DNA of 64,000 nucleotides. Source: Thermococcus pacificus. Lineage in GTDB: Archaea > Methanobacteriota_B > Thermococci > Thermococcales > Thermococcaceae. The translations under genes were made by a program, and so were the position numbers. Shown here piece by piece: positions 26,975-33,057 of the stretch (the first letter of the stretch is position 1; every line of letters begins with the position of its first letter). The notes under the pieces are model-generated. The model had not been told where the DNA came from. It was given only the letters and a program-made list of their open reading frames with translations, and did not search any database. The DNA is taken from the NCBI RefSeq assembly GCF_002214485.1, contig NZ_CP015102.1, forward strand, positions 992,001-1,056,000, written 5' to 3'.

Positions 26975-27718
26975 ATGGTGCTCATAGTTGTAACAGGGAG
27001 GGGTGGTGCCGGGAAGACGACTACTACTGCTAACTTAAGCACTTTTCTTGCAATGAGGGAATACCGTGTTCTCGCCGTTGACGGTGATCTTTACCTTCCC
27101 AACCTTGGCTTTCACTTTGGGTTTGACACCGTTAAATACACTCTCCACTCTGTCCTGAAGAATCCAGACATAGACCCGGAGTGGGCGATATACAGGCACC
27201 CTCAAACGGGCGTCCACGTCATGCCCGGGAGCACTCAGCTCCAGGACGTTCTTGGAATCTCCCCCAGAAGGCTTGTGGACATCCTCGAGAGGGTTAAGTA
27301 CAAGTTCGGCGTTATTTTCGTTGACTCCCCCACAGGGATACCCTTTGACACCCTCCCCACCTTTGAAGTTGCGAATTATCAGCTCATAGTCGTTGAGATA
27401 GAGCGCTCACCAATATACTCTTTTGAGACCATGGTGGAGAATGAGATCGAGAAGCTGAAGGCCCTGGGAGAGAGGTACAACCTGAACATCGGGGTTATCC
27501 TTAACAAGGTTCGTGAGTCTGGGGACGTCGTTGACAAAGTCATCGAGGCTGTTGAGGAAGATCTCAACGTTCCCGTTATAGGGTGGATACCCTTTGATAA
27601 CAACGTCCCTGAATCCATCAACGTTGGTGTCCCCATCCTGAAGTACCGTCCCAAGAGCGACGCGGCCATAGCCTTCCAGGAGACTGGGGAAGTCCTTGAG
27701 GAATGGATATTCGGCTGA
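26975..27718 (+). CDS. MinD/ParA-like ATPase
   Basis: The 247-residue protein is a deviant-Walker ATPase: P-loop TGRGGAGKTTTTANLS (7-22), switch I LAVDGDLYLPNLGFHFG and switch II IFVDSPTGIPFD. The signature lysine at the start of the deviant P-loop (KGGxGKT) is Arg9 here, and Lys14 is the usual P-loop lysine, so the ATP-dependent dimerisation typical of MinD may be altered. A C-terminal amphipathic helix (FQETGEVLEEWIF) could bind membranes. ATG 26975 follows GGAGGGG; the upstream in-frame codons are not supported by the TATA-like CTTATATTCC near 26932. It lies 25 bases before HMG-CoA reductase. Its role is unknown. Confidence 0.8.
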   Translation: MVLIVVTGRGGAGKTTTTANLSTFLAMREYRVLAVDGDLYLPNLGFHFGFDTVKYTLHSVLKNPDIDPEWAIYRHPQTGVHVMPGSTQLQDVLGISPRRLVDILERVKYKFGVIFVDSPTGIPFDTLPTFEVANYQLIVVEIERSPIYSFETMVENEIEKLKALGERYNLNIGVILNKVRESGDVVDKVIEAVEEDLNVPVIGWIPFDNNVPESINVGVPILKYRPKSDAAIAFQETGEVLEEWIFG

Positions 27719-27743
27719 TTTCAAGTTCTGGAGGGGTGTCCTT

Positions 27744-28976
27744 ATGGATGTGAACTTCGAAGAACTTGTGGAGAAGGTAGCCAATGGGGAAATAAAGCTG
27801 CATCAGGTTGAGAAGTACACGAACGGCGACAAGAAGCTCGCCACTGAAATAAGGAGAAAGGCCCTTGAGCGTAAGTTTGGTATCAGCCTCGAGAACATCG
27901 GCCACTACTCTATAGACCCCAACAGAGTGATAGGGAAGAACATCGAGAACATGATAGGCGTCGTCCAGATACCCATGGGTGTCGCCGGGCCCCTCAAGAT
28001 CAACGGGGAATACGCGAAGGGTGAATTCTACATTCCCCTCGCAACAACAGAAGGCGCGCTGGTAGCCTCAGTCAACCGCGGTTGCTCGGCATTGACCGCC
28101 GCTGGAGGAGTTAAGACCACCATAATAGGCGACAAGATGACGCGCGCCCCCCTCCTCAAGTGTCCAGATGCGAGGAGGGCTAGGGAAGTTGCAGAGTGGG
28201 TCAAGAACAACCTCGACTACCTCCAGGAGAAGGCGGTATCAAATGTCACCAGACACGGGAGGTTGAGGGACGTCAAGCCGTACATAGTGGGCAACAACCT
28301 CTACCTCCGCTTCGAGTTCGAGACCGGCGATGCGATGGGTATGAACATGGTCACCATCTCGAGCGAGGAGATAATGAAGGTCATTGAGGAGGAGTTCCCC
28401 GACGTTAAGTACCTGGCTCTCTCGGGCAACCTCTGCGTCGACAAGAAGCCCAACGCCATGAACTTCATCAACGGGCGCGGCAAGACGGTCATAGCCGAGG
28501 CTTTAATCCCGAGGGAGATAGTCGAGAAGAAGCTGAAGACGACTCCGGAGCTCATAGCCGAAGTCAACTACCGCAAGAACCTCGTCGGTTCTGCCCAGGC
28601 AGGAAGCTACGGCTTCAACGCCCACTTTGGGAACATAGTTGGGGCGATATTTTTAGCGACAGGCCAGGACGAAGCTCAGATTACTGAAGGCTCGCACGGC
28701 ATAACTTTGGCGGAGGTCACACCTGAGGGCGACCTCTACATAAGCGTAACCATGCCGAGCCTTGAGGTAGGAACCGTCGGCGGCGGAACGAGGGTTCCAA
28801 CTCAAAGGGAAGCTTTGAGCATTATGGGCGTTGCAGGCGGAGGAGATCCGCCCGGAACGAACGCCAAGAAGTTCGCCGAGATAATAGCCGGGGCTGTGCT
28901 GGCGGGCGAACTTTCTCTCCTGGCCGCGATAGCCGCCAAGCACCTCGCGAAGGCCCACAAGGAGCTAGGACGTTAA
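27744..28976 (+). CDS. hmgA: HMG-CoA reductase (class I)
   Basis: This enzyme makes mevalonate for archaeal ether lipids using NADPH. The 410-residue protein contains ENMIGVVQIPMGVAGPL (68-84), Glu103 in ATTEGALVAS, GDAMGMNMV (195-203, Asp196), Lys235 in VDKKPNAMN, Asp309 in GQDEAQ, GTVGGGT and the C-terminal His400 in AAKHLAKAH, i.e. all catalytic groups. The start is ATG 27744 behind GGAGGGGTG. Spacing to the MinD-like gene suggests cotranscription. With uppS and the UbiD enzyme in this window it represents the isoprenoid pathway. Confidence 0.97.
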   Translation: MDVNFEELVEKVANGEIKLHQVEKYTNGDKKLATEIRRKALERKFGISLENIGHYSIDPNRVIGKNIENMIGVVQIPMGVAGPLKINGEYAKGEFYIPLATTEGALVASVNRGCSALTAAGGVKTTIIGDKMTRAPLLKCPDARRAREVAEWVKNNLDYLQEKAVSNVTRHGRLRDVKPYIVGNNLYLRFEFETGDAMGMNMVTISSEEIMKVIEEEFPDVKYLALSGNLCVDKKPNAMNFINGRGKTVIAEALIPREIVEKKLKTTPELIAEVNYRKNLVGSAQAGSYGFNAHFGNIVGAIFLATGQDEAQITEGSHGITLAEVTPEGDLYISVTMPSLEVGTVGGGTRVPTQREALSIMGVAGGGDPPGTNAKKFAEIIAGAVLAGELSLLAAIAAKHLAKAHKELGR

Positions 28977-29566
28977 AGCGTTATCCTCTCGAGTTCTCCC
29001 TTCTTTTCGGCCTTTTTCAGCATCTGACTCCAGGTTTTGGAGGGCATCACGTTTATCAGTTTGCCCTTCTGCCCCTTGGGACCGAAGAGGTACTCGACGA
29101 TCGAGAAGAGGGCCCCGAGGATTATCGCACCCCATAGCCCAAGGTTGAAGTAATCGCTGAGGGCCGCGATTACAATGGCGAGTATTCCATCGAGGAGGAA
29201 CCTCCAGGGGTTGCCTTTCCTAAGCTTTGATTCCGTGATTTTATCCAGTTCGTCCTTGGCGAGAAGGGAGAAGAACTCCCCGGCCTGCTTCGGATGGAAC
29301 ACGTAGACTTTGGGTATCATTTCATTAACTGCGATGATTCTCTTCTCCAGAGGCTGGATGAAGACGTACCTGGAACCGTCCTTCACGTCGAGTATAAGGA
29401 GGCTTGTTCTGCCACTAATGCCCTCTGACAGCGTTAAGAAGCTTGCAACGTCGGGATTCTTGAACTCAAGGGCGGAGGGGAACACCTCCTTAACCCTCTC
29501 GAGGGGGATGTCCTTTGGAGCGTAGTAAAAAACGATGACCGGCTGAAAAGCATCTACGAGAGACAT
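28973..29566 (-). CDS. Hypothetical two-span membrane protein
   Basis: The 197-residue protein has a soluble alpha/beta N-terminal half (1-about 115, including a strand-rich TSLLILDVKDGSRYVFIQPL) and two adjacent hydrophobic spans (about 122-160), followed by a charged tail (KTWSQMLKKAEKKGELERI). No family is recognised. The ATG follows a GGAGG-like AGGAAC, and a reverse TATA-like CTTTTAATTG lies near 29591. It is convergent with hmgA and overlaps it by 4 bases. A Thermococcales-specific membrane protein is the most that can be said. Confidence 0.68.
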   Translation of the reverse strand: MSLVDAFQPVIVFYYAPKDIPLERVKEVFPSALEFKNPDVASFLTLSEGISGRTSLLILDVKDGSRYVFIQPLEKRIIAVNEMIPKVYVFHPKQAGEFFSLLAKDELDKITESKLRKGNPWRFLLDGILAIVIAALSDYFNLGLWGAIILGALFSIVEYLFGPKGQKGKLINVMPSKTWSQMLKKAEKKGELERITL

Positions 29567-29734: not shown

Positions 29735-29744
29735 CTTTAAAAAG
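29735..29744 (+). promoter_or_regulatory. TATA box of the C/D box sRNA
   Basis: CTTTAAAAAG is centred at 29739-29740. Initiation 25 bases downstream falls at about 29764, 5 bases before the C box, exactly as expected for a short independently transcribed archaeal C/D guide RNA. Confidence 0.65.
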
Positions 29745-29763: not shown

Positions 29764-29823
29764 CAGGGATGATGACTTATTTCCCTCACTCTGAACCGTG
29801 ATGAGGAGCCGATGCTCTGACCG
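29764..29823 (+). ncRNA. C/D box small guide RNA
   Basis: All four boxes are present in order and spacing: C box ATGATGA (29769-29775), a 15-base D' guide (29776-29790), D' box CTGA (29791-29794), a 3-base gap, C' box GTGATGA (29798-29804), a 12-base D guide GGAGCCGATGCT (29805-29816), and D box CTGA (29817-29820). Such RNAs bind L7Ae, Nop5 and fibrillarin and direct 2'-O-methylation five bases upstream of each D box. A TATA box lies 25 bases upstream of the inferred 5' end. The D' guide UUUCCCUCAC pairs with GUGAGGGAAA, a conserved 23S rRNA segment (recalled, not searched). The ends are approximate. Confidence 0.85.
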
Positions 29824-29842: not shown

Positions 29843-31732
29843 TCAGCCCGCTATTTCCTGGATTTTCTTCCTCACGAGCTGGTTGACGAGCTTTCCGTCG
29901 GCCCTGCCGCGGAGCTTCGCCATCGCGCGGCCCATTATCATGCCCATTGCGCCCATTCCCTTGGCCTTGATGACGTCGATGTTCTGCTGAACCACCTCGT
30001 CTATTATTCTCTCGACTTCCTCTTCGCTGAGAAGGGTTAATCCCTTCTCTTCTGCGACCTGCCTCGCAGTCTTTGTCGGGTTCTTTGCGAGCTCCTTGAA
30101 TATCTCCTCAAAGGCCTCCTTTGCTATTTTACCCTCAATGTAGAGCTCGAAGGCCTCCCTTATGTGCTCCTCTGTGAGGTTCTCTATCGGAGCTTCTTTC
30201 TTCAGTCCCTTGAGAACCACAACCAGTATCGAGGCCACGAGGGACGGCTTGAGGCCCTTCTTCACAAGCTCCTCGAAGAGCTCATCGCGCTCATCGTTGA
30301 CCAGCGTCTCGGCGAGGCTTTTGTCTATTCTGTACTCCCTGACGAAGCGCTCAACCCTCTCCTGCGGGAGCTCGGGGAGGTTCTCGATGATGCTGCGCTT
30401 GAGCTCCTCGGTTATCTCTATCGGGGGCACGTCCGTCTCGGGGTACATCCTCGCCTTTCCCGGGAGCGGGCGCATGTACTCGGTGTTGCCGTCCGGTAAA
30501 GCTCTCCTCGTCTCCTCGGGGACGCCCTCTATGGCCTCCTTAGCGCGCTTGACGACCTCGCGCAGGGCCTTCCTTGCGGTCTCCTCCTCGGCCGCGACGA
30601 GGACGAAGGCATCATTCTCCCCGAGGTTAAGCTTTTCGATAACTGCATTAACCTCTAATTCTGTAATTCCATAGTTCGGTAATTCATCAATGTGGAAGAT
30701 TCCGCGCACGTACTTCCTCGCCCTGTTAGCCATTTCGGTGCCCAAACGCCTGCCCGGCTGAATCTCCCTGCCGATCAGCCCGCGGAACCCGGGGAGCTTA
30801 ACCGCGAGAACCTTTCCACCGTTCTTTATCGCCCTCGCGATTATCTTTGAACCGGTGTTCTGGAACACGTCGGTAACGTCGTGGAACTCTTCGTTAAGGT
30901 CTTCCGGCTTAACACCCCTCTCGCGGAGCTCATCGCGTATCTTGAGCAGGTTTACCTGCCTCTCCACCTCGCGCTCGATGATGAGGGGTATCATGTCGAG
31001 CTCCTGCACACCTTTAATCTCGACCCTCGCTCCATCCCTGATGGAGACATTGAGGTCCTGCCTGATGGTTCCGAGGCCGCGCTTGACCTTTCTAGTTGCC
31101 CTCAAAGCGTCGCCTATGAACTTGGCGACGACCTTTGCCTGCTCCGGGTGGTGGATGTCCGGGGTGGTGGCTATTTCCACGAGCGGGACGCCAAGGCGGT
31201 CGAGGCGGTAGATTACCTTCTTCTCGCCCCTCTCAACGATTCTGCAGGCGTCTTCCTCAAGGCAGACCGTCGGGATGCCAACGCTTCCCCAGGGGGTGTC
31301 CACCTTCCCCTCCATGCCCACTATGGCCGTCCTCTGGAAGCCGGAAACGTTCGAGCCGTCTATGACGATCTTCCTCATGAAGTGAACCTCGTCAACGGGC
31401 ACGGCGTTGAGCAGGTAGACTATCTGGAGCGCGGTCTTGAGGGCCTCCTCGTCGGGCCCCCTCGGGGGCTCCTCGTCCATGTAAACCAGGTCGGTGAGCT
31501 CGTAGTTGCCCTCGTACACGTAGACCTTCCCCTTCTTGAACTCCTCTAAAGCGGCGGGATCAATCTCGCCGAGCTCGCTCATTGTCGGCCTTAGGCGTCT
31601 CTCGAACGTGAAGTCAACGTCCTCGCTGAACTCGCTCGGTACGGGTGAAAACAGCTTCTTCGTGTCGAGCTGCCTGTGAATCTCAAGGCCGACCTTGAGG
31701 CCAAGCTCCTCGTAGTTGAACTTCTCAGCCAT
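29843..31732 (-). CDS. gatE: Glu-tRNA(Gln) amidotransferase subunit E
   Basis: GatE is the kinase-like subunit of the archaeal GatDE complex that converts Glu-tRNA-Gln to Gln-tRNA-Gln. The 629-residue protein has the GatB/PET112-like cradle domain ([20 protein letters not shown] at the start and [18 protein letters not shown]), the inserted AspRS-like domain (about 270-400), and the helical YqeY-like C-terminal tail ([17 protein letters not shown] to [19 protein letters not shown]). ATG 31732 follows GGTGATGAG and lies 5 bases after the gatD stop. A TATA is not needed because it is the second gene of the operon. Confidence 0.96.
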
Positions 31733-31737
31733 CCTCA

Positions 31738-33057
31738 TCACCTCAGGTAAGTGTCAAACCTCGTGTAGGGCGTTATCTCGCCGGCGTAGTTCGTCAGCAT
31801 CATCTCGCGGACTTCCTTCGGGTCGTCGGTGTGGCCGAGAACCCACATCAGCTTGACGTAGGCCGTCTCCGGGAGCATGTCCTCGCACGGAATCACGCCC
31901 GCCTTGAGGAGCCTCCTTCCGGTGGAGTAGACGTTGAGGTTGACCCTGCCGTAGAGGCACTGGCTCGTCATGCAAACCGCCATGCCCTCCTCGGTGGCGC
32001 GCTCTATCGCTGGGATGATGTCGTTGGGCGTGTGCCCGAGGCCGGTTCCTTCGATCACGAGACCCCTGTAACCCCTGTCAACGAAGAAGTCTATGAGCTC
32101 GGAGCTTATTCCGGGCACGACCTTGAGGAGCCCTACGCGCGGCTCCATTCTATCGTCAACCCAGACCTCTCTTTCTCCCCTCTTCCTGTAGTCCTTCCTC
32201 AGGAACTCTATCTCCCCTTTCGGCCATACCCTTGCTATGGGCACGTCGTTTATGCTCCTGAAGGCGTCCCTCCTTGAGGTGTGCATCTTCCTGGCCTTGG
32301 TGCCGCGGTGGGCTAAACAGTAGGTGTCGCTCGTCTCGCCGTGCATGACTATCGCCACCTCGCCAAAGTCTGCTGTTGCCATCCTGACCGAGCAGATTAG
32401 GTTCATGGCAGAATCGCTGCTCGGTCTGTCGGAGCTCCTCTGGGAGCCAACGAATATCACCGGCTTTTCGAGGTCGCGGAGCATGAAGCTCAAAGCGGCC
32501 GCACTGTACGCTAAAGTGTCCGTTCCATGGGCGATTACAACCCCGTCCTCGCCCGCGTTCAGGGCCTTCGCCGCCTCGTGGGCCATCCTCTTCCAGTAGT
32601 CCGGTTTCATGTCCTCGCTCATGATGTTCATGAGGAGCTTTGGCGTTATGTTTGCTATCTCGAAGATCTCCGGGACAGCTCTGGCCAGCTCCTCCGCGGT
32701 GAAGGCCGCGTGAACCGCTCCGGTCTTGTAGTCTATCTTGCTCGCGATGGTTCCGCCCGTTCCCAGTATCGTGACGCCCGGCAGGCCCTCCTTCCTGGGG
32801 AGCACCTCTTTGAACGCCACTTCCTCCCCGGGCCTGGCCTTCTCAATGACCTCAACGCTCTCTATGAGCTCTATCCTTACACCCACGTTGTAGCCGTTAT
32901 CGAGCTTTATCGTAAGGGTCTCTCCGGGGGAGAGCTCGTAGGGCGGCATGACTATGCCCTCGTACCTTATCCTCCTGTCCCCTTCCCTCTTAACGACCGA
33001 AACGCGGTCGCCAAGGGAAAGGCCCTTCTCCTTCATGAACGCCTCAACTTTCCTCAC
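31738..33057 (-). CDS. gatD: Glu-tRNA(Gln) amidotransferase subunit D
   Basis: GatD is the L-asparaginase-like subunit that releases ammonia from glutamine or asparagine for GatE. The 439-residue protein has an N-terminal beta-barrel (about 1-85) and an asparaginase domain with the first catalytic threonine in [10 protein letters not shown], the second in [13 protein letters not shown], and a late EGTGLGHTP segment. The start is GTG 33057 behind GGGGTGATAAC, giving a normal length. It is first in the gatDE operon, which archaea use in place of a direct glutaminyl-tRNA synthetase. Confidence 0.96.

Follow-up and report, generated by a model that had tools for sequence, protein, structure and literature searches.

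What does the short interval beside the 3' end of gatE encode in Thermococcus pacificus, and if it is a guide RNA, on which RNA would it act? An earlier note, made from the sequence alone, had placed a C/D box guide RNA at positions 29764-29823 of the window, by which we mean the whole 64-kb stretch of DNA that was analysed (G000:C1:992001-1056000, from a Thermococcaceae genome in one contig of 1.79 Mb). We propose that the locus very probably encodes a double-guide archaeal C/D box sRNA with two sites in 23S rRNA, and that it is predicted to direct fibrillarin to the 2'-O-methylation of A497 and U445.

A C/D box sRNA gene beside gatE

When the sequence is read directly, a complete C/D box sRNA gene is found on the forward strand (Table 1), in agreement with the position, the canonical boxes and the correct spacing described in the earlier note. 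The C (RUGAUGA), D' (CUGA), C' (RUGAUGA) and D (CUGA) boxes follow one another with guide-sized spacing, and all of them fit the consensus (29769-29820). The C'/D' k-loop expected of archaeal C/D box sRNAs is also present, with a 3-nt loop and co-variation between D' base 2 and C' base 5 in 48/48 copies. When both strands of the 64-kb window were scanned with a strict and a loose pattern, this motif turned up a single time. The terminal stem of the T. pacificus copy has 2 bp followed by a G.G mismatch; among the homologues of a first set (n=25) it has 2-5 bp in 22 and none in 3. Single-strand folding was uninformative both for the sRNA (z 0.07) and for the 23S rRNA segment that it is predicted to bind (z -0.42). 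The identity as a C/D box guide RNA is borne out by the boxes, the k-loop, the 23S complementarity and the conservation, and the identification as an ordinary member of this well-known archaeal class is well supported.

Table 1. Features of the sRNA locus, in window coordinates
Feature	Position	Strand	Evidence
TATA box TTTAAAAA, putative own promoter	29736..29743	+	sequence; TATA-like hexamer at equivalent site in 36/47 homologues
C/D box sRNA gene, whole RNA	29765..29823	+	RF00095 end-to-end match; homologues in 47/94 family genomes
C box ATGATGA, terminal k-turn	29769..29775	+	identical in 47/48 copies
D' guide region CTTATTTCCCTCACT, 15 nt	29776..29790	+	part 29780-29789 (TTTCCCTCAC) pairs with 23S GUGAGGGAAA, N+5 = A497
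D' box CTGA, k-loop	29791..29794	+	base 2 co-varies with C' base 5 in 48 copies
k-loop spacer ACC, 3 nt	29795..29797	+	alignment; sequence variable between homologues
C' box GTGATGA, k-loop	29798..29804	+	base 5 co-varies with D' base 2 in 48 copies
D guide GGAGCCGATGCT, 12 nt	29805..29816	+	pairs with 23S GGCAUCGGCUCC, N+5 = U445
D box CTGA, terminal k-turn	29817..29820	+	same in 48/48 copies (collecting pattern demands CTGA) and in aligned set

The gene is flanked by the 3' end of gatE (29843-31741, reverse strand; GatB/GatE domains) and by a gene for a protein of 197 aa (28973-29566, reverse strand), beyond which the next gene upstream encodes HMG-CoA reductase (27696-28976, forward strand). 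As the sRNA lies on the forward strand and gatE on the reverse, transcription would run towards the 3' end of gatE. The 197-aa protein has no Pfam match, and a protein 37-41% identical to it is found at the same place in several relatives.

The sRNA is likely to have a promoter of its own. The earlier note had already judged the TATA box to be at the right distance. Its first base is 33 nt from the C box, and the TATA box lies some 27 nt ahead of the expected 5' end of the RNA. Among the homologues with enough upstream sequence (n=47), 36 have a TATA-like hexamer at a distance of 25-42 nt upstream of the C box, mostly starting 29-33 nt before it, as against 1.8% of random 23-nt windows. A scan with bacterial promoter and terminator models, which are not applicable to archaea, gave nothing useful.

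Predicted target sites in 23S rRNA

Both guides were searched by the N+5 rule against the 23S rRNA, 16S rRNA and 44 tRNA genes of this genome, the 23S numbering being counted from the start of RF02540. This check, which the earlier note had proposed with a complementarity of at least 9 bases as its yardstick, yielded two matches in 23S rRNA, of 10 and 11 bp. The D' guide forms 10 consecutive Watson-Crick pairs with GUGAGGGAAA, the ten-base complementarity that had been given in the earlier note and is now located in the genome's own 23S gene. The nucleotide at N+5 is A497 (genome position 151438), the A of GUGA as foreseen, and it aligns with A466 of Escherichia coli K-12. The D guide forms 11 consecutive Watson-Crick pairs with GCAUCGGCUCC, with U445 at N+5 (genome position 151490); counting one G.U pair as well, its duplex extends over GGCAUCGGCUCC and is the better match of the two guides. 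A firm E. coli number is not given for U445 because the alignment there is too gappy. The U445 site lies 52 nt upstream of the A497 site, both near the 5' end of the 23S rRNA (domain I), and in each of the duplexes a Watson-Crick pair occupies the N+5 position. When the guides were shuffled with their composition preserved, the D' guide reached 10 nt in 1.1% of cases and the D guide 11 nt in 0.4%, whereas both together did so in 0 of 20,000.

The earlier note could name no target for the D guide and supposed that it might act on a tRNA or on an unexpected RNA, a view that does not survive the search. It would make the sRNA a single-target guide whose D guide is an orphan or directed to tRNA, and nothing was found to speak for it beyond the fact that the earlier note could name no target. 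With 11 consecutive pairs plus a G.U pair to the genome's own 23S rRNA in the right register, and with a D guide as conserved as the D' guide, such a reading is very improbable. In tRNA gene bodies the longest match was 8 nt among the matches listed, and a tRNA target for the D guide was rejected on this ground. No 16S rRNA match was among the best matches for either guide. The segment UCGGCUC of the peptidyl-transferase region of 23S rRNA was also considered as a D target and set aside, having 7 consecutive Watson-Crick pairs as opposed to 11 at U445.

The genes for fibrillarin and Nop5 are present, and adjacent, in the T. pacificus genome. The action of archaeal C/D sRNPs, in which the RNA guides fibrillarin to its target, has been reviewed (PMC7994747). 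For the present sRNA, transcription from its own TATA promoter would be followed by binding of L7Ae to the C/D k-turn and to the C'/D' k-loop, and by recruitment of Nop5 and fibrillarin. In the assembled particle the D' guide would hold GUGAGGGAAA for 2'-O-methylation of A497, and the D guide would hold GGCAUCGGCUCC for that of U445. Since the sites are 52 nt apart, a single particle could engage both, and it might also help this segment of the 23S rRNA to fold. Such chaperone action has been proposed for double-guide C/D sRNAs with closely spaced targets (PMC4644070; PMC7994747). The sRNA could thus be mainly a folding chaperone for the domain I segment, with little or no methylation at one site or the other, and the closeness of the two binding sites fits this. 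However, the paired N+5 positions and the intact D and D' boxes are what methylation requires, so that a predominantly chaperone role appears unlikely; the two modes are not exclusive. With guided methylation of both nucleotides as the preferred reading, two predicted 2'-O-methylation sites would be added to the map of Thermococcaceae 23S rRNA.

Double-guide C/D sRNAs with closely linked rRNA targets are known from the literature (Omer 2000 as cited in PMC7994747; PMC4644070), and the T. pacificus sRNA resembles them in that its two guides point to nearby positions on one rRNA. The pair U445/A497 was not found named in the literature that we consulted. A large part of 23S domain I has been described as having few targets (PMC4644070).

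Conservation and loss of the gene in Thermococcaceae

A search with a sequence model found intact homologues, defined as full-length matches with E <1e-15, in 47 of 94 Thermococcaceae genomes belonging to four genera. A search of the phylum gave nothing outside Thermococcaceae, and in a scan of genome contigs the matches were in Thermococcaceae/Thermococci MAGs only. The sRNA is a neighbour of gatE, often 500 nt off, in almost every Thermococcus context; the four g2/g3 loci that were tested have it in different surroundings. In one genome there is a second intact copy (L079, G009:C1:1403399-1403455). It lies some 31 kb away from the other copy and has the same guides, and the sequence upstream of it is different.

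Across 48 distinct copies, the guides vary very little. The D' guide core TTCCCTCACT is found in 46 of them, and the two exceptions are a C to U change opposite G, by which a G.U pair is kept, and a change at the unpaired position -1 alone. The D guide consists of GGAGCCGATGC and then T, A or C in the 48 copies, so that it varies at position -1 only; the k-loop spacer is freely variable, as is the D' region in its 5' part. The pattern by which these copies were collected itself demanded CTCAC and GGAGCCGATGC, fixing part of the guides. Therefore, the stronger argument comes from the unconstrained model search, which yielded the same copies and few other full-length ones. Another C/D-like sRNA (L148, L149) occurs in several genomes of the family; its C-to-C' half is related (CTTCCCCTCAT precedes D'), and its D guide is different.

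Intact copies are absent from genus g4 (13 genomes) and from about half of genus g1, and three relatives have decayed copies, with boxes broken or the D guide changed (L130 in G029, L131 in G044 and L132 in G049). Loss of the gene does therefore occur. The target sequences are identical in all 26 copies of 23S rRNA examined, including those of genomes without the sRNA, so that about half of a genus has lost the sRNA while its 23S targets are unchanged. This suggests that the predicted methylations would not be essential in the family. Candidate replacement guides for genomes lacking the sRNA were discarded: in 29 other genomes there were matches to both guide patterns, and none was preceded by a C box. 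The patchy loss next to unchanged targets offers natural pairs of presence and absence in which the role of the methylations can be asked.

Relation to Rfam and to described sRNAs

The T. pacificus sRNA matches the Rfam family RF00095 (snoPyro_CD) from end to end with 41.6 bits (E 9e-8) and does not reach the gathering cut-off of 45 bits. Thus, it would escape automatic annotation by pipelines that apply the cut-off, and a clear sRNA copy is missed. Homologues with the same guides lie above 45 bits (L007, 50.8; L008, 47.9; L010, 47.7). The box architecture is shared with RF00095, whereas the guide sequences differ from those of its consensus, and for this reason the targets cannot be read from assignment to the family.

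A score just under the cut-off and the decayed copies in relatives would be in keeping with an unexpressed motif, either decayed or arisen by chance. This is hard to reconcile with the intact state of every box, the presence of the TATA box, and guides that equal the consensus of the Thermococcaceae homologues exactly; moreover, 60 first-order Markov simulations of the 64-kb window contained zero C/D motifs. We regard such an origin as highly implausible, and the locus as an intact guide RNA gene.

In T. kodakarensis, 61 putative C/D box sRNAs have been reported (PMC9014305) and 54 C/D sRNAs verified (PMC4247193). A likely homologue in that species, with the same guides, is found in G012 at 795508-795566 on the reverse strand; the genome is taken to be T. 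kodakarensis because its coordinates fit the published sR49, sR29 and 23S rRNA. This locus does not appear in the table published for circularised sRNAs, a table that covers a subset only. For P. furiosus, RiboMeth-seq data are reported to have been placed in GEO (PMC7758197). A text search of the literature for the guide sequences returned nothing relevant, the lists of Pyrococcus and Thermococcus sRNAs being placed in supplements.

Co-variation in the k-loop

Base 2 of the D' box and base 5 of the C' box (window 29792 and 29802) face each other in the k-loop. Among the 48 copies this position is U.U in 33, C.C in 10, C-G in 4 and U-A in 1, and a mixed state never occurs; the association of U versus non-U at the two bases is strong (Fisher p 3e-11, relatedness being ignored). 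In the terminal C/D motif the pair is U.U in 47 of the 48 copies. The co-variation is indicative of selection at the level of the RNA, and the several distinct paired states imply several separate events. We consider it more likely than not that, between close relatives of one guide RNA, co-ordinated changes take the third C'/D' k-loop pair from U.U to C.C, C-G or U-A, while the terminal k-turn stays U.U. If this is true, the copies would form a natural series in which the effect of this pair on L7Ae binding, and on methylation at the D' site, could be followed. Switches of the k-loop pair were seen in L013, L014, L020, L083, L109 and other copies.
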